A stretch of DNA of 64,000 bases from an uncultured Treponema sp. (GTDB lineage Bacteria; Spirochaetota; Spirochaetia; Treponematales; Treponemataceae). Where the stretch lies: contig NZ_CAMHSK010000001.1 of the NCBI RefSeq assembly GCF_946187725.1, forward strand, positions 62,001-126,000, read 5' to 3'. Of this stretch, positions 2,386 through 12,788 are shown piece after piece. The position numbers and the translations under genes are program-made. Below the pieces are notes generated by a model that was not told the origin of the DNA, made no database searches, and saw only the letters and a program-made list of their open reading frames with translations. The first letter of the stretch is position 1. Every line of letters begins with the position of its first letter.

Positions 2386-2567
2386 GCCTGAAGACTTTGG
2401 GCGTTACCTGCCTTTCGGCAGGTCGGGCTTTCCGCCCTTCGCTAACGCTCATAGCCTACGGCTACTTCGGGGCTACAATCCCTAACGCAGGGAGCGACGG
2501 CGAAGCCGTAAAAACTCACGAGGTGAGTTTTTAGCGAGTCTCCGAGCAGCTACGCTGCGAAGGCGTA
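2386..2567. repeat. Dispersed hairpin-rich repeat, copy A
   Basis: About 180 bp between pheT and the unknown gene consist of successive short inverted repeats: CCTGC/GCAGG, TAGCC/GGCTA, ACGGCGAAGCCGT, ACTCACGAGGTGAGT and GCAGCTACGCTGC. The block CCCTTCGCTAACGCTCAT recurs in copies near 9.6 and 11.9 kb, the block CTACAATCC recurs near 5.2 kb, and the half from GGGAGCGAC to the end recurs near 30.7 kb. No open reading frame of note is present. Confidence 0.8.
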
Positions 2568-4505: not shown

Positions 4506-5174
4506 ATGGATACAGTTCGCGTGATTGAAGTGAAGGAAAATATCCTTGCTGACAACGACAAGGAAGCCGAGATTTTACGGCAGAAGCTCAAATCTAAGAA
4601 AACTTTTTTGATGAATCTTATGTCATCGCCGGGGAGCGGAAAAACTACCACTTTGCTCCGAACCGTTGAGGCTCTCAAAGACAAAATCAAAATCGGAATT
4701 ATGGAAGCGGACATTGATTCGAGCGTCGATGCCGAGACGATGGCAAATGCGGGCGTAAAATCGATTCAGCTGCACACGGGCGGAATGTGCCACTTGGATG
4801 CGGCAATGACCGAGCAGGGATTGAATGAACTTGGCTATGACGGACTTGATTTGGTCGTGCTTGAAAATGTCGGAAATTTGATTTGCCCGGCAGAATTTGA
4901 TACTGGGTCTGCAAAGAATGTGATGATTCTTTCGGTGCCGGAAGGTCATGACAAGCCGCTCAAATATCCGCTCATGTTCAGCAAGGTTGATGCTCTGATT
5001 ATCAACAAAATTGATGTCATGCCGTATTTTGATTTTGACATGTCGAAAGTGCGGGAATATGTAACAAAGCTCAACAAAGATGTAAAAATCTTCCCGATTA
5101 GCGCAAAAACCGGCGAGGGTGTCAAAGAATGGACGGATTGGCTTGCCGAAGAGTTGAATGCTCATAACAAATAA
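4506..5174 (+). CDS. hypB: Hydrogenase nickel-incorporation GTPase HypB
   Basis: GTPase of the SIMIBI class that passes nickel to HypA during assembly of NiFe enzymes. From ATG 4506 (AAGGCGG upstream) it is 222 residues. SSPGSGKTT near residue 40 is the P-loop, EADIDSSVDAE and HTGGMCHLDAAM carry the switch and metal-site Cys/His, ENVGNLICPAEFD is the G3 region, and NKID near 160 gives guanine specificity. The N-terminal His-rich nickel storage stretch and CXXCGC motif of some HypB proteins are absent. It opens an operon with a flavin/Fe-S oxidoreductase and hypA. No hydrogenase subunit is in the window, so the nickel client is unknown. Confidence 0.93.
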   Translation: MDTVRVIEVKENILADNDKEAEILRQKLKSKKTFLMNLMSSPGSGKTTTLLRTVEALKDKIKIGIMEADIDSSVDAETMANAGVKSIQLHTGGMCHLDAAMTEQGLNELGYDGLDLVVLENVGNLICPAEFDTGSAKNVMILSVPEGHDKPLKYPLMFSKVDALIINKIDVMPYFDFDMSKVREYVTKLNKDVKIFPISAKTGEGVKEWTDWLAEELNAHNK

Positions 5175-5283
5175 TTTCACGCGCTGGATTGTAGCACCGC
5201 CGAAGGCGTTCCGAAGCGAAGCGTAGGAATGGAACGAAAGTGGAAGTGCGAAAAGCCAGGAGACGGTTGATTCGCGCAATAGT
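5175..5283. repeat. Dispersed hairpin-rich repeat, copy B
   Basis: The 130-bp gap between hypB and the oxidoreductase holds short inverted repeats around CCGCCGAAGGCG and CGAAGCGAAGCG. Read on the minus strand it begins GCGCGAATCAACCGTCT, close to the start of copies C and D, and ends with CTACAATCC as in copy A. A related short motif, GCGCAATCAACGGT, lies at 4385-4398 in front of hypB. Confidence 0.65.
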
Positions 5284-5304: not shown

Positions 5305-8031
5305 ATGGCAGAAAAAGAAACAGTCAGGCCGCTTATTTTACAGCTTGGTCAGAAGATTACGGACAGGCTTGGTCGAAAAATTAACGAGAATGACCCGGAA
5401 TACTGGGGATTGAACGAAATTGTGACCGACGAAATGGCAGAAGTCGCGCTCAAAATGGATGTGCGAAAGCCGGTGACTTTGCCGCAGCTTGCTAAAAAGA
5501 CCGGAAAGGACGAAAAATATCTCGAAAAGATTCTCATGGATATGGCGATGGCGGGTCTTATCGAATACAACTGGGAGAATCCTAAGCGCGAAAAGCAGTA
5601 CATTTTGCCGATGTATGTTCCGGGAAGCGCTGAGTTTACGAACATGAATCAGAAACAGCTTGAAGAGCATCCGAAATTGGGTCGTTTCTTCGAGAGAATG
5701 AGCTTTGAACCGCTTACTAAGGTCGTTCCGATGGTTCCGGAGGGCGGTGCCGGAATCGGTATGCATGTTATTCCTGTTGAAAAGGCGATTGAGGCCGAGA
5801 ATCAGAGTGTTAGCGTAGAGCACATTTCTCACTGGCTCGACAAATACGATGGAAAATATGCGGCTTCTCCTTGTTCATGCCGATTGAGCCGAAGAACTTT
5901 CGATGAAGGCTGTGCCGATGACCCTGAAGACTGGTGTATCGGTGTTGGTGACATGGCTGACTATCTCGTTGAGACAAAACGCGGTCATTATGTCACACGC
6001 GAAAAGGTTCTTGAGATTTTGAAACACGCTGAAGACTGCGGATTTGTTCATCAGATTACGAACATTGACGGCGAAAACAAGATTTTTGCTATTTGTAACT
6101 GTAATGTGAATGTTTGCTACGCGCTCCGAACAAGCCAGCTTTTCAACACGCCGAATCTTTCGCGCTCGGCTTATGTTGCCCGCGTTGAATCTGACAAATG
6201 TGTTGCTTGTGGCCGTTGTGTTGAATATTGTCCGGCTGGTGCAGTTAAGCTTGGTCAGAAACTTTGCAAAAAAGACGGAAAGAAAGTCGAATATCCGAAG
6301 CACATTTTGCCGGATAATCATAGATGGTCTGAGAAAAACTGGGACATTAACTATCGCGATACAAACCGCACAAACTGCTATTCGACAGGAACGGCTCCTT
6401 GTAAGACTGCTTGCCCGGCTCACATCGGAATTCAGGGCTATTTGAAGATGGCAAGCGAAGGCCGTTACACTGAGGCACTTGAGCTGATTAAGAAAGAAAA
6501 TCCGTTCCCGGCTGTTTGTGGCCGAATTTGTAACAAAAGGTGTGAGGCGGCTTGTACCCGTGGCACAATCGATGAAGCAATTGCTATTGATGAAGTCAAA
6601 AAATTCATCGCTCAGAAAGATTTGGATGCGGCAACACGCTTTATTCCGAAGAAGGTAATTCCTTCAAACCGCGGTGAATTTGAGCAGAAAATTGCGATTA
6701 TCGGAGGCGGTCCTGCTGGCCTTTCATGTGCGTTCTACCTTGCAGAAAAAGGCTATCGTCCGACTGTGTTTGAAAAGAACAAAGTTGCGGGCGGTATGCT
6801 CGTTTACGGAATTCCAAGCTTCAAACTCGAAAAAAATGTCGTTCAGGCTGAAATCGATGTCATGAAGGAAATGGGCGTTGAAATCAAAACTGGCGTTGAA
6901 GTTGGAAAAGATGTCACAATTGCCCAGCTTCGTGAACAGGGATACAAGGCTTTCTACATTGCGATTGGCTGTCAGGGCGGTCGAAAAGCCGGAATTGCTG
7001 GTGAGGATGCCGAGGGCGTTATGACTGCGGTTGATTTCCTTCGCACTGTTGCAGACGACCATGATTACAAAGTGACTGGTCGAACAGTTGTTGTTGGCGG
7101 TGGAAATGTTGCAATCGATGTGAGCCGTACTGCATGGCGATGTGGCGGAACAGAGGTTCAGCAGTTCTGTCTTGAGCAGCGTAAAGAAATGCCTGCAACC
7201 CTTGAAGAAATCGAAGAAGCCGAAGAGGAAGGAATCAAAATCAACTGCGGCTGGGGACCAAAAGAGATTCTTACCGAGAACGGAAAAGTCAAAGGAATCG
7301 TGTTCAAGAAGTGCGTTTCTGTAAAAGACGAAACAGGCCGTTTCAACCCGAAATATGATGAAAACGACACAATCACAATCGAGTGCGAAAATGTGTTCCT
7401 TTCAATCGGACAGGCAATCGTCTGGGGTGACATGCTTGCTGGAACAAAAGTTGAGCTTGGTCGCGGAAACGGCGTTGTTGCTGACGGCGTGACTTACCAG
7501 ACAGCTGAGCCGGACATTTTTGCGGGCGGCGATGTTTACACAGGTCCGAAATTTGCGATTGATGCGATTGCGGCTGGAAAGAAGGCGGCTGTTTCAATCC
7601 ATAGATTCGTTCAGCCACATTCTAGCATGACAATTGGCCGTGATAAGCGAGAATTCATCGAGCTTAATAAAGAAGATATTTTCGTTAAGGGCTACGATGA
7701 CACACCTCGTCAGGTTCCGGCTAAAAAGACTATCAGTGAAGTCGGAAGCAAGTTCAAGGAAACACAGCTTTGCTTCACAGAAGAGCAGATTAAAAAGGAA
7801 ACTGCCCGCTGTTTGAGCTGTGGTCAGAGCGTTGTTGACGAGAACAAGTGTATCGGCTGTGGTGTTTGTACGACAAAATGTGCCTTCGATGCAATCCACT
7901 TGCACCGCGAGCACCCGAAAGCAAGCCGCATGATTCCGAGTGAGGACAAGCTCAAGGCAATCCTGCCGAACATCGTCAAACGCGAAATCAAAGTTCTGCT
8001 CAACCCGAACAGGAATTCGCTGGAGAAGTAA
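5305..8031 (+). CDS. FAD-dependent NAD(P)-linked oxidoreductase with ferredoxin domains
   Basis: A 908-residue multidomain cytoplasmic redox enzyme. Residues 1-290 include a winged-helix-like region and scattered cysteines (CSCR near 191, CNCNVNVC near 265). A 4Fe-4S ferredoxin motif CVACGRCVEYCP starts near 299. From about 365 the protein is like the small subunit of glutamate synthase and NfnB/SudA: cysteine region CKTACPAHIG and CGRICNKRCEAAC, FAD site IIGGGPAGLSCAF near 466, NADPH site VVVGGGNVAIDVSR near 595, FAGGDV near 745. A C-terminal ferredoxin CIGCGVCTTKC lies near 848. ATG 5305 has AGAGG upstream. Electron transfer between NAD(P)H and ferredoxin or a partner is likely. Sandwiched between hypB and hypA, its partner may be a nickel enzyme, which is inference. 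Confidence 0.85.
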   Translation: MAEKETVRPLILQLGQKITDRLGRKINENDPEYWGLNEIVTDEMAEVALKMDVRKPVTLPQLAKKTGKDEKYLEKILMDMAMAGLIEYNWENPKREKQYILPMYVPGSAEFTNMNQKQLEEHPKLGRFFERMSFEPLTKVVPMVPEGGAGIGMHVIPVEKAIEAENQSVSVEHISHWLDKYDGKYAASPCSCRLSRRTFDEGCADDPEDWCIGVGDMADYLVETKRGHYVTREKVLEILKHAEDCGFVHQITNIDGENKIFAICNCNVNVCYALRTSQLFNTPNLSRSAYVARVESDKCVACGRCVEYCPAGAVKLGQKLCKKDGKKVEYPKHILPDNHRWSEKNWDINYRDTNRTNCYSTGTAPCKTACPAHIGIQGYLKMASEGRYTEALELIKKENPFPAVCGRICNKRCEAACTRGTIDEAIAIDEVKKFIAQKDLDAATRFIPKKVIPSNRGEFEQKIAIIGGGPAGLSCAFYLAEKGYRPTVFEKNKVAGGMLVYGIPSFKLEKNVVQAEIDVMKEMGVEIKTGVEVGKDVTIAQLREQGYKAFYIAIGCQGGRKAGIAGEDAEGVMTAVDFLRTVADDHDYKVTGRTVVVGGGNVAIDVSRTAWRCGGTEVQQFCLEQRKEMPATLEEIEEAEEEGIKINCGWGPKEILTENGKVKGIVFKKCVSVKDETGRFNPKYDENDTITIECENVFLSIGQAIVWGDMLAGTKVELGRGNGVVADGVTYQTAEPDIFAGGDVYTGPKFAIDAIAAGKKAAVSIHRFVQPHSSMTIGRDKREFIELNKEDIFVKGYDDTPRQVPAKKTISEVGSKFKETQLCFTEEQIKKETARCLSCGQSVVDENKCIGCGVCTTKCAFDAIHLHREHPKASRMIPSEDKLKAILPNIVKREIKVLLNPNRNSLEK

Positions 8032-8469: not shown

Positions 8470-9552
8470 ATGTTATTTCAACTTTATGGAGACGGCGTTC
8501 TCTGGCAGCTTTTGGGCTGGGTCGCTGTATTTGTCGGTTTGATTCTTGCAAACGAAATCGCAAGAAGAACAAAGGCTGGTGGAATTGCACTTCTGGTCGC
8601 TCTTCCGCTCGGACTTACCGTTTACTTTATCGTCGTTGCAGTGGCAGCTGCGGGCGGTGCACAGTGGGCTTTGAACAATCAGACCTATCTTTACATGAAC
8701 GGCTGGTTCCATTATGCAAAATTGTATGCGGCAGACATCGGCTGTATCGGTTTCATGGTGCTCAAATACAAATGGGGCAAACTTGGAAAGTCACACTGGT
8801 TCAAGGCATGGCCATTCGTAATCGTTGGAATCAACATTTTGATTGCAGTTGCTTCTGATTTTGAAAGCGCAATCAAAGGCGGTTCTCTTGCAGGTGGCTG
8901 GTGGAAATCAAGCGAAAATGTATGGCTTTACGGCGGCTGGTGGAATGTCGCAAACGGAATCGCTGGTCTCATCAACATTCTCTGTATGACAGGCTGGTGG
9001 GGAATCTATTCTTCAAAAGACAAACATCATCAGGATATGCTCTGGCCGGACATGACAATCTGGTTCATCCTTGCTTACGATGTATGGAACTTCCAGTACA
9101 CATATGCAAACTTGCCGACACATACATGGTACTGTGGCGTTGCACTTTTGCTCGCACCGACATTTGCGGCTGCATTCTGGAACAAGGGCGGCTGGATTCA
9201 GAACCGTGCAAACACTCTTGCACTATGGTGTATGTTCGCACAGGTATTCCCGCTCTTCGAGATTAAAAATGCAACAGCTGTACTTCCGACCCTCTATCAG
9301 GGAGCCGCTGAAGCCGGACTTAACGCATTCGACATGACTGCAATCAATTCTGCAGCAGAACTCGCATCAAAGGGAATCACGGCAAATCCTGTACCGCAGG
9401 GCGTAGTTTCAATGCTCGCACTTGCAATCAATGTTGTCGCACTGTTCGTAATCATTAAGCGCGCAAAAGCCGCTGGAAAAAATCCTTACACCAATGAGAT
9501 TTTCGTCGGAACAAAGGATTACGAAGAAGCAATGGAACGCGCTGAACGCTAA
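8470..9552 (+). CDS. DUF5692-like polytopic membrane protein
   Basis: A 360-residue integral membrane protein with about eight hydrophobic segments, rich in Trp and Gly, starting at ATG 8470 after an excellent AGGAGG. I recognise the overall pattern (N-terminal NEIARRTKAGG, then YMNGWFHYAKLYAADIGCIG, LKYKWGK, and a Trp-rich block) as the uncharacterised DUF5692 family; no function is known to me. It closes the hypB operon, 36 bp after hypA, and is followed by a strong terminator. The conserved His/Trp/Tyr residues in or near the membrane could bind a cofactor, but nothing in the sequence proves this. Confidence 0.8.
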   Translation: MLFQLYGDGVLWQLLGWVAVFVGLILANEIARRTKAGGIALLVALPLGLTVYFIVVAVAAAGGAQWALNNQTYLYMNGWFHYAKLYAADIGCIGFMVLKYKWGKLGKSHWFKAWPFVIVGINILIAVASDFESAIKGGSLAGGWWKSSENVWLYGGWWNVANGIAGLINILCMTGWWGIYSSKDKHHQDMLWPDMTIWFILAYDVWNFQYTYANLPTHTWYCGVALLLAPTFAAAFWNKGGWIQNRANTLALWCMFAQVFPLFEIKNATAVLPTLYQGAAEAGLNAFDMTAINSAAELASKGITANPVPQGVVSMLALAINVVALFVIIKRAKAAGKNPYTNEIFVGTKDYEEAMERAER

Positions 9553-9565
9553 CTGACAGAAAAAC

Positions 9566-9599
9566 AAAAAGGAGCCTCGTTATGAAGCTCCTTTTTTTA
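9566..9599 (+). terminator. Intrinsic terminator of the hyp operon
   Basis: AAAGGAGC and GCTCCTTT pair around a 9-nt loop and run into TTTTTTT, right after the DUF5692-like gene. Confidence 0.9.
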
Positions 9600-9601
9600 T
9601 G

Positions 9602-9695
9602 GGCGCAATCAACTGTCTGCCGCTGTTCCGCGCTTCGCTAACGCTCATTGCCGCAAGCGGCAACTAAAGGCGCTCCATAGCGGGCGCGGCATTTT
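9602..9695. repeat. Dispersed hairpin-rich repeat, copy C
   Basis: The gap between the two facing operons holds GCGCAATCAACTGTCTGCCG, then CGCTTCGCTAACGCTCATTG and the hairpin GCCGCAAGCGGC, then GGCGC...GCGCGGC. The first 75 bp align closely with copy D at 11.9 kb, where the hairpin reads GCCGTAAACGGC. Confidence 0.85.
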
Positions 9696-9711: not shown

Positions 9712-10023
9712 TTATTTCTTCAATAAAGCCTTTCTTACGATTCCTTTCGGGTCTTTTACGAGCAGAATCACGAGCCAGATTACAAGGCCCAATGCCACTA
9801 CTGAAAGCCCCAGGAACAAATCATTGAGCATATCAAGCGGTGCCGGTGTAAAAAATTCTGCACCTGCTTCGCCGTATTCAAAAACGGCATCGATGAGCCA
9901 CATCAAAGATGCTCCCCAAAACATAAAGCAGAGAGTGCTGACTTTAAGCTCTCGTGCTGATTCATTTTTATACCAGATAGTCGTGCATATTGCGGCTGCG
10001 AAAACTGTTGTTAAAAGTGTCAT
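9712..10023 (-). CDS. Small membrane protein, second gene of pair
   Basis: A 103-residue protein starting at ATG 10023, which overlaps the stop of the preceding gene by the classic ATGA, so the two are translationally coupled. Three hydrophobic segments are visible: the N-terminal MTLLTTVFAAAICTTIWY, LCFMFWGASLMWLIDAVF, and LFLGLSVVALGLVIWLVILLV, followed by a basic tail. I do not recognise a named family. It is read towards the hyp operon, from a promoter carrying the same palindrome as the hypB promoter, which hints at a shared physiological role. Confidence 0.75.
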   Translation of the reverse strand: MTLLTTVFAAAICTTIWYKNESARELKVSTLCFMFWGASLMWLIDAVFEYGEAGAEFFTPAPLDMLNDLFLGLSVVALGLVIWLVILLVKDPKGIVRKALLKK

Positions 10024-10424
10024 GCCTGTACCGCTCCTGTGACTTTCGCTTTGTTCTGATTTTTTTCCATGATTGAAGTAACTCCGACCATGATTCCCCA
10101 TACTGATGTGACCAGAAGAGCCATTGAAATTCCAGCGGTTCCCATCTCTTGAAGCATTTCTGCAACATTTCCGTCTTTTACAGCTGTAAGGAACGGGAAG
10201 AATGGAACGACCTCACCGTGCCATACATGCTCAAAAGCAAGGAGTGCTGAGCCGCCCCAGAGCATATTATTGAGCCAGCCAAGTTTTGTTGAAAACGGGA
10301 TTTTTACTGTGCTGTCAGCCAATTCAGGTTTTGAAAGGGCAATTTTGTTTTCTTTAGATTTGATTGCCTTTGCCAGGATTGTTGTGACGATTGCTTCTGT
10401 TGTTGGAACTAAAAAACAAGCCAT
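10020..10424 (-). CDS. Small membrane protein, first gene of pair
   Basis: A 134-residue protein from ATG 10424, chosen because GGAG sits 8 nt upstream; an earlier in-frame ATG at 10436 is less well placed. The N-terminus MACFLVPTTEAIVTTILAK may insert in the membrane, and two further segments lie around GWLNNMLWGGSALLAFEHVW and GISMALLVTSVWGIMVGV. The motif EHVWHGEVVPFFPF, with two His and a Glu next to a membrane segment, is a possible metal or haem site, which is inference. No family name is recognised. It is coupled to the next gene by ATGA. Confidence 0.75.
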   Translation of the reverse strand: MACFLVPTTEAIVTTILAKAIKSKENKIALSKPELADSTVKIPFSTKLGWLNNMLWGGSALLAFEHVWHGEVVPFFPFLTAVKDGNVAEMLQEMGTAGISMALLVTSVWGIMVGVTSIMEKNQNKAKVTGAVQA

Positions 10425-10892: not shown

Positions 10893-10936
10893 GAAGTGCT
10901 GAATAACCGCATCAAATGTTAATCAGCACTTTTTTA
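10893..10936. terminator. Terminator between yhbY and the convergent gene
   Basis: AAGTGCTGA pairs with TCAGCACTT over a 24-nt loop, followed by TTTTTT; the T run serves yhbY and the hairpin could also stop the opposite strand. Confidence 0.75.
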
Positions 10937-11980
10937 TTTATCCATCGAAAGCAGTAAATCCATTGTCCATGCACCTTCACCGACACGCAATGTCACAAGA
11001 TTTCCGGTTCTGTCGGCGGAGAGTGCGTTCTTTTTTGTCAGCTGATACAGATACGAATATTGGTTCTCATAGTCCTGACTAACAGCCGGTGTGATGGTGT
11101 ATTTTGTGACTCCATTTTCGGTGCCTTTGGCATGGAAATAGAAATAAAAGGTTTCGCTTCGGACTTTGTTTTCTGACATGTATTTGCGGTCGCCGGTAAG
11201 CAAAAATGTTCCGTCGGCTTCTTCTTCCGAAAAATAGATTTTTTTGCATGTTGGAAGGATATCGTAGCCATTCACGACAAAGCGGAGAATTTTCGGTTCT
11301 TTTTTAACGATGTTTGAAAAAGTGTTTTCTCCGGCATTGCGTTCACTTACGCTGGTTCCGCTGGCCACTTTGTTTTTCAGTTCCGTCAATTCACCCAAAA
11401 TTTGCTGCAATGTCGCAGAATCAACTGTATTTGCCGAAACCATGTTTTGATTTGAAAGAAGCTGGCTCTGCAAGTTTGAGTTTCCGCGTCCGAGAAGGCC
11501 CGAAAGCGAGCCTAAAACACCGAGATTGTTCATCGATGAAATGTCATCTGCGGTAAGCTGATTGAGTGAAGATGAAGCGGATTTTGCAAGCGTGTTGAGT
11601 TTTTTTGTTTGATTGAGCGTGGCATTCTGATTTTGAGTGCTTGAGTCTGATGCAGAAGATGCTGAAGAATTTTGTGTAACGGACTTGGAATCCGTGGTTT
11701 GTGATGAAGGTGTCTGCTTTTTCCTTTGCAGATTCGGATTGTAGAAATCACTGCGACCTGGAGCATAAAAACCGCTTCCAACGCTGGGCATTGAAACTGC
11801 CGGGCTGGAAGGCATTGACGGCATGGTGAGCGAGCCGGATTTTTCTTCGGTCTTTACCTCAGCGAAAAGTATTGCGTTTAACAGTAAAAGCCCGCCCGCC
11901 GTGAAGCCCCGTAGTTGCCGTTTACGGCAATGAGCGTTAGTGAAGGGCGAAAGGGCGGCAGACAGTTGATTTGCGGCCAT
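10934..11980 (-). CDS. Secreted hypothetical protein whose N-terminus is encoded by a repeat
   Basis: A 348-residue protein if translation starts at ATG 11980, directly after the stop of the upstream gene; an ATG at 12037 inside that gene is a less likely start. Residues 1-29 come from repeat copy D, and residues from about 30 form the hydrophobic core (GGLLLLNAILFAEV) of a signal peptide. Then follow a Ser/Pro/Met-rich stretch (SMPSMPSSPAVSMPSVG), a long Ser/Thr/Asn/Gln-rich linker near 85-200, and a C-terminal folded part from about 215 that contains ILRFVVNGYDILPTCKKIYF. No family recognised. It sits downstream of a HEYTHH protein with one base between the stop and ATG, so coupling is likely. 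Confidence 0.75.
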   Translation of the reverse strand: MAANQLSAALSPFTNAHCRKRQLRGFTAGGLLLLNAILFAEVKTEEKSGSLTMPSMPSSPAVSMPSVGSGFYAPGRSDFYNPNLQRKKQTPSSQTTDSKSVTQNSSASSASDSSTQNQNATLNQTKKLNTLAKSASSSLNQLTADDISSMNNLGVLGSLSGLLGRGNSNLQSQLLSNQNMVSANTVDSATLQQILGELTELKNKVASGTSVSERNAGENTFSNIVKKEPKILRFVVNGYDILPTCKKIYFSEEEADGTFLLTGDRKYMSENKVRSETFYFYFHAKGTENGVTKYTITPAVSQDYENQYSYLYQLTKKNALSADRTGNLVTLRVGEGAWTMDLLLSMDK

Positions 11981-11982
11981 AT
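11885..11982. repeat. Dispersed hairpin-rich repeat, copy D, inside a coding sequence
   Basis: Read on the minus strand this begins GCCGCAAATCAACTGTCTGC and continues through CCCTTCACTAACGCTCATTG and the hairpin GCCGTAAACGGC to GGGGCTTCACGGCGGGCGGG. It matches intergenic copy C closely but here is in frame and gives the first residues of the secreted protein. Confidence 0.85.
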
Positions 11983-12788
11983 TATAAACTTTCAAGGCTT
12001 TCTTCCACATATTGCAATCTCTGCTGAAGTGCTTCAATGGTTTTTGTGAGGCGGTTCTTTTCTTTTTCGAGTTTTGCGCGGGGATCGCTGTTTGACGAGG
12101 CCTTTTTCATGAGTTCAGTTACCGTGTCAGGTGATTTTCCGCTGAGAATCTGTTTTGAGGCTGAATCGCGGTCTTCGCTCTTTTTGAGCATGGCGACCTT
12201 TTTCATGTTGTCGAAACCAAGTGCCGGATCAACTTCAACCTTGCCGAGTTTTGTGATGTCTTTGGCGGAATTTCGGGGCAGACAGAGGATGCGGTCAAGG
12301 TAATCTTCGTAGCGGATATTTGCCTTTTCGCACAGTTCGTGTGCTTGAGCGAGCAGTTTTCCGAATTCCTGCATGAGTTTACCGTTTACTTCCATATATT
12401 CTTTGCGGATTTTTTCGGTAAGTTCTTTAAGTTCAGGAGATTCGTCCAAATCGATTTTGTAGATTCCGAGTTCTTCGGCTTTTTGAAGGAGAATGTGGAA
12501 TTTTGTCCAGAAGGCGGTCGTGTGGACTTTGCTGCCTTTCATTGGAAGTTTGCCGCCTGTTTCAGCCAGAAATTCTTCGGTCAGAAGATGATGAGTGTAT
12601 TCATGAATCGCGGTGTAAATGAGCTGCATGTCACTCTTAAAATTTTTGTTGTGAAGCAGAATTTCGTGAGTTTCTGGCTTGTAAAGACCGTTTACGCGTG
12701 TGCTTTCTTTACCTGTCATTGTGACGGTGAATTCCAGGTCTGTATTTTCAATTTGCAAAAGTTTTTGTTTGATTTCTTCGTTGTCCAT
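11982..12788 (-). CDS. Hypothetical protein with HEYTHH zinc-peptidase motif
   Basis: A 268-residue, probably cytoplasmic protein (no signal peptide). AIHEYTHH near residues 61-68 is an HExxH zinc motif preceded by LIYTA, as in small zincin domains, with KVHTTAFWTKFHILL downstream as a possible third-ligand region. Residues 115-160 and 225-268 are charged and predicted coiled coil; the tail KNRLTKTIEALQQRLQYVEE is clearly helical. I do not know the family. ATG 12788 has TATAAT (12796-12801) seven bases upstream and only a weak AGAAAGA, so a leaderless start is possible. It precedes the secreted protein in a two-gene unit. Confidence 0.75.
   Translation of the reverse strand: MDNEEIKQKLLQIENTDLEFTVTMTGKESTRVNGLYKPETHEILLHNKNFKSDMQLIYTAIHEYTHHLLTEEFLAETGGKLPMKGSKVHTTAFWTKFHILLQKAEELGIYKIDLDESPELKELTEKIRKEYMEVNGKLMQEFGKLLAQAHELCEKANIRYEDYLDRILCLPRNSAKDITKLGKVEVDPALGFDNMKKVAMLKKSEDRDSASKQILSGKSPDTVTELMKKASSNSDPRAKLEKEKNRLTKTIEALQQRLQYVEESLESL

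Follow-up and report, generated by a model that had tools for sequence, protein, structure and literature searches.

Rickettsia is the best-known source of in-frame palindromic repeats, with further examples in Wolbachia and a few enterobacterial cases. Two articles (PMC2229807, PMC10969869) describe the Rickettsia palindromic elements (RPEs; Ogata et al. 2000) as stem-loops of ~100-150 nt that occur in dozens of copies, both between genes and in frame within unrelated conserved genes, housekeeping enzymes included. The RU-2/YPAL repeat of Yersinia forms part of the signal peptide of YPO1552 (Delihas 2007, PMC2759123). A literature search, with most subscription papers outside its scope, returned no description of such elements in Treponema.

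The locus described here lies in a 64,000-nt stretch of DNA from an uncultured Treponema sp. (the window; genome G000, with relatives numbered in the same way). An earlier note on this DNA had proposed that a dispersed repeat, copy D, was taken into the gene of a secreted protein, where it encodes in frame the N-terminal part of the signal peptide. This proposal is borne out by the repeat family, the empty sites of orthologues, and the open reading frame. With a probability of approximately 0.8, the element was inserted cleanly between the start codon and the hydrophobic core and was tolerated there, without acting as the donor of the start codon. The features are collected in Table 1.

Table 1. 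Features of the window discussed in the text.
Feature	Position	Strand	Basis or remark
Palindromic repeat copy D, type 1, in-frame insert	11885..11981	-	BLAST family, covariance model, G051 junction
Intergenic copy, same repeat as copy D	9597..9694	+	BLAST, covariance model
Type 2 copy, same repeat as copy D	2399..2494	+	BLAST, covariance model
Diverged copy, same repeat as copy D	5173..5281	-	covariance model, E=7.8e-6
Secreted-protein gene with insertion, 353 aa from predicted TTG start 11995	10934..11995	-	
Hydrophobic core of signal peptide, LLLLNAILFA	11861..11890	-	host sequence apart from first bases
TTG, most likely start codon, equivalent conserved in orthologues, overlaps upstream gene	11993..11995	-	
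ATG, alternative upstream start, MWKKALKVYN...	12008..12010	-	
ATG 11980, junction codon (host AT + element G), weakest Shine-Dalgarno	11978..11980	-	
Upstream gene, 268 aa, HExxH-containing, last codons contain ancestral start of secreted-protein gene	11982..12788	-	

Structure and distribution of the repeat

The 98-mer of copy D was used as a BLAST query against its own genome, and 32 matches were obtained. Copy D is 83% identical to the copy at 9597-9694 over ~97 nt (E=1.7e-19) and 87% identical to another copy on contig 11 (E=3e-22). The former lies between an ORF ending at 9552 and the ORF 9712-10101, so that the relationship claimed earlier to an intergenic sequence at 9602-9695 holds in both similarity and position. 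An alignment of 15 copies spans ~97 positions around a strongly conserved core, CCCTTCGCTMACGCTCATTGCC..GGCAACT..GGGGCT, and two subtypes are distinguished by different outer arms. The covariance model made from these 15 copies has 97 positions and 19 pairs. In the stems 94.7% of the cells are paired, changes on both sides appear in 10 of the 19 pairs, and the covariation is 0.344 versus 0.094 for shuffled alignments (0/500). Four copies in the window are matched by the model, the three strong ones being part of its training set; the E-value of 3e-21 for copy D is to be read with this in mind. The fourth, weak match (5173-5281) sits upstream of a gene at 5305.

Matches in the whole genome number 82 at E<=0.1 and about 60 at E<=1e-3 or better, and the copy number in this Treponema is about 60-80. 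The model also finds matches in 93 of the 118 congeners. The exact core pattern was traced to 37 named stretches, every one of them (37/37) from Treponema or an unnamed Spirochaete; rumen metagenomes are the source of many, and T. ruminis is included. The core pattern is missing from viral contigs, and a phage origin was rejected on this ground. The two sense frames that are often open were found open in 34/58 and 36/58 copies; the antisense frames were open in 1-21.

No Rfam family matches the site of copy D at the gathering threshold, which led to the rejection of a known structured RNA. The outer arms may resemble integron attC; that identity was also set aside, the copies being single and dispersed and not arranged in cassette arrays. 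As a short, palindromic, and dispersed repeat, the element could in principle be a REP sequence mobilized by a Y1 transposase (RAYT). This is highly improbable, since a search of the genome (assembly 98% complete) for Y1_Tnp (PF01797) gave no match although the same search was positive in 5 of 14 control genomes.

Insertion site, start codon, and reading frame of the window gene

The frame from ATG 11980 is open through the element and into the host sequence, MAANQLSAALSPFTNAHCRKRQLRGFTAGG-LLLLNAILFAEV, and its translation is MAANQLSAALSPFTNAHCRKRQLRGFTAGGLLLLNAILFAEV. As the earlier note had it, the first 29 or so residues (about 29-30) are encoded by the element, the hydrophobic run begins at the 3' end of the element, and ATG 11980 lies one base past the upstream stop, TAA 11984-11982. 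The core itself is host-derived by comparison with orthologues, its first bases excepted. No family for the window protein was found in Pfam or NCBIfam. The AlphaFold model of the protein is confident for a beta domain at the C-terminus (about residues 230-353), and Foldseek found no PDB match with E below 0.001. The upstream gene encodes an HEYTHH motif (possible metallopeptidase), with a sub-threshold Pfam match to DUF6782.

Orthologues of the window gene were identified in 110 of the 118 congeners. In the closest relatives the best matches begin at residues 26-37, directly past the element. All of the close orthologues that were read lack the repeat; an N-terminus shared without similarity to it, named earlier as the opposing outcome, was not what they displayed. 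The junction with G051 reads TAATATTTTACT versus TAATAT[90 nt]TTTTACT in the window or, over a longer span, TGTAATATTTTACT versus TATAATAT[90 nt]TTTTACT. The inserted stretch is thus 90 nt, about 11889-11978; the two sequences differ in the core as well, by a 3-nt gap. At this one site, with this one relative, no target-site duplication is present beyond a 1-nt ambiguity. Identity to the closest relatives is only about 67%, which makes the empty site a comparison between species and not between strains.

The protein tree and that of the upstream neighbor both unite G089 and G051 and leave G000 outside the pair, with support of 92/87 and 94/89, and in both G000 is placed beside these two genomes. 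G022, which also lacks the element, is in the upstream-gene tree only. Because neither G089 nor G051 carries the element, these trees place the insertion, a derived state, on the G000 branch. At the insertion spot G089 has ATGCCCGCAA, which is similar to the left end of the element; the likeness is suggestive, and an older insertion partly lost there keeps a small probability. This similarity was treated as convergence because the trees group G089 with the element-free G051.

In 64 of the 68 orthologous junctions that were read, a TTG start falls within the last part of the upstream gene and has a strong Shine-Dalgarno (mean dG of -8.6 kcal/mol). It is located six bases downstream of GGAGG (GTGGAGGAAAGCCTTG). 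This is the ancestral start that the earlier note had proposed to seek, and its equivalent in the window is TTG 11995. The dG values for the window, calculated with an assumed anti-Shine-Dalgarno sequence that may differ from that of the host genome, are -3.3, -2.9, and -0.7 kcal/mol for TTG 11995, ATG 12010, and ATG 11980, respectively. The choice of start is uncertain because Shine-Dalgarno sequences in the clade of the window gene are weaker than those in other orthologues.

In the earlier note the element donates the region of the start codon; translation would now begin at ATG 11980, where host and element join. That codon is in frame and, by its position one base past the upstream stop, suits reinitiation; in a second gene (gene B, below) the first ATG also falls at the left end of the element in G000, G089, and G038. 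This origin of the start is nevertheless doubtful. ATG 11980 has the weakest Shine-Dalgarno of the three candidates, only its G is supplied by the element, and the overlapping TTG, conserved in nearly all orthologues, is kept in frame at 11995. For this last reason an upstream start is favored, and the element most likely landed between a pre-existing start and the hydrophobic core, widening an existing N-region. Apart from ATG 11980, neither the element nor the stretch up to the end of the hydrophobic run has an ATG, GTG, or TTG in frame. Any product bearing the signal peptide must therefore contain the element, barring initiation at a rare codon such as CTG, and if the signal peptide is made the element is most likely translated from a start upstream of it.

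The N-region with the element is 29-44 residues long, depending on the start. Its charge is +5 ahead of a core of normal hydropathy, and the element residues ...CRKRQLRGFTAGG immediately before the core are positively charged. For the mature protein dN is about 0.25-0.26 and dS about 2.5 relative to G051 and G038, which gives a dN/dS of about 0.1 (dS is saturated relative to G089 and G020); the mature part is thus under purifying selection. These values suggest that export of the window protein still works. The insertion could instead have decapitated the gene, leaving a nonworking signal peptide and a shorter product or none; the unusual length of the N-region and the Leu at -3 of the likely cleavage site, ILFA|EV, are in keeping with this. 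It is quite unlikely, given that the frame is intact across 353 codons, that the terminal branch is short (0.18) and not longer than the branches of intact orthologues, that dN/dS is similar to theirs, and that the later in-frame Met codons are all past the hydrophobic run.

On the favored reading, a clean and tolerated insertion, a small palindromic mobile repeat would have entered between the overlapping start codon and the signal-peptide core, and one of its two often-open sense frames would have fallen in register. The gene would have gained about 30 residues with its reading frame retained. The Sec signal could still work with the longer N-region because the extra residues are positively charged ahead of the core. 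We infer that the change was close to neutral.

In-frame copies in other genes and other repeats at the same sites

The genomic context was read for 70 of the 82 matches in G000. Some of the in-frame matches given below are weak, with E of about 1e-3 to 1e-5, and were assigned in part by their visible likeness to the family. In a lipoprotein (L299, G000:C1:210238-210339) the signal peptide is split by the element, MKKIF[34 aa]LLLALSGC, with the junction reading MKKIF[34 aa]LLLALSGCKEKS; the N-terminus is uninterrupted in nine relatives. G051 has a copy just upstream of its counterpart of this gene. The hydrophobic core of the lipoprotein in G089 and G020 (L302, L303) is ICVNLCNLWF from AATCTGTGTAAATCTGTGTAATCTGTGG, which looks like another repeat. 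In gene B, encoding a secreted protein of ~746 aa (L285/L217, G000:C35:20761-20859), the N-region of the signal peptide is derived from the element, which may also supply the start codon. The same is found in G089 and G038 (L216, L189), and the N-region is not element-derived in G020, G051, G100, G041, G036, and G114.

Further in-frame copies in G000 are located between the two domains of carA, in a dppF-like ATPase gene, and in earP. Two permeases probably carry one in the N-tail, just before the first hydrophobic segment, and an oppB-like gene is among the in-frame cases. The relatives have in-frame copies in uvrC (G051) and coaE (G089) and, in antisense orientation, in a pseudouridine synthase of G020. 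ORFs that run through an element but likely start downstream of it (L148, L145, L132, L275, L289, L300, and the G100 gene in L187) were not counted. Because the window gene and several others bear in-frame copies, repeat DNA can add length to bacterial export signals with the gene unbroken.

Unrelated repeats occupy some of the same sites. The G038 orthologue of the window gene (L014, G038:C31:44032-44132) has no palindromic element and carries a different insert there. The 3' half of this insert, TTTGTCATGCTGAACTCGTTTCAGCATCT, recurs at high copy number in G038 and G028 and is present in other congeners, and much of that orthologue's signal peptide consists of this unrelated repeat. A weaker, low-complexity case of a repeat is seen at the site in G036. 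The CATGCTGAAC repeat occurs three times, with a spacing of about 88 nt, at G100:C89:32104-32312. In several relatives the inter-domain linker of carA holds different repeat-like inserts (L134, L167-L175). Sites that tolerate inserts thus appear to gather repeats time and again.

A broader proposal is offered tentatively, at less than even odds: Treponema signal peptides and N-terminal tails are repeatedly rebuilt from unrelated repeats, namely the G000 element, CATGCTGAAC..TTCAGCAT in G038, and perhaps a third in G036. If true, small repeats would steadily supply new export signals and would not be rare accidents. Repeat capture at export signals might even be selected, for example if a folded mRNA near the start tunes translation or export. 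Three signal peptides and probably two permease N-tails are affected in one genome, the element of gene B is kept in frame in three species despite divergence, and G038 carries an unrelated repeat at the same site. Selection is nonetheless unlikely: the N-terminal ends ahead of a mature protein may simply be tolerant places, and internal sites (carA, dppF-like, earP) have also been struck.

Comparison with known systems

The Treponema element resembles the RPEs in its size, stem-loops, dozens of copies, and presence in housekeeping enzymes, and perhaps in its open frames. The structural trait is seen in the 97-position palindromic model with 19 pairs and stable stem-loops, the dispersal in the 82 matches and 93/118 congeners, and the genic trait in the in-frame copies of unrelated conserved genes (window gene, gene B, lipoprotein, carA, dppF-like, and earP) beside intergenic ones. 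It differs in its organism, in a multibranched core with conserved TTCGCTMACGCTCA, and in the three in-frame cases of one genome that fall in signal peptides. In mechanism the element would work like an RPE.

Yersinia RU-2/YPAL provides one main example, whereas the Treponema element affects several genes. Here, in addition, the junction is exact when set against an orthologue with an empty site, and the insertion separates the N-region from the hydrophobic core. PARCEL (PMC2996958) is likewise palindromic DNA that codes for protein, but it forms tandem 25-residue arrays, in contrast to single dispersed copies. With REP/RAYT systems the element shares short dispersed palindromes and not the Y1 transposase, none being found in this genome; the target-site duplication of MITEs was not seen at the single site resolved against G051.

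A structured in-frame family with empty sites in a genus of more than 100 sequenced species makes the absorption of mobile DNA by proteins testable, and with it the evolution of export signals. For annotation, repeat sequence can mis-set the start codons and signal peptides of such genes. Set beside the systems above, the Treponema element adds a new family to a known phenomenon, and its insertions into signal peptides are unusually clear.
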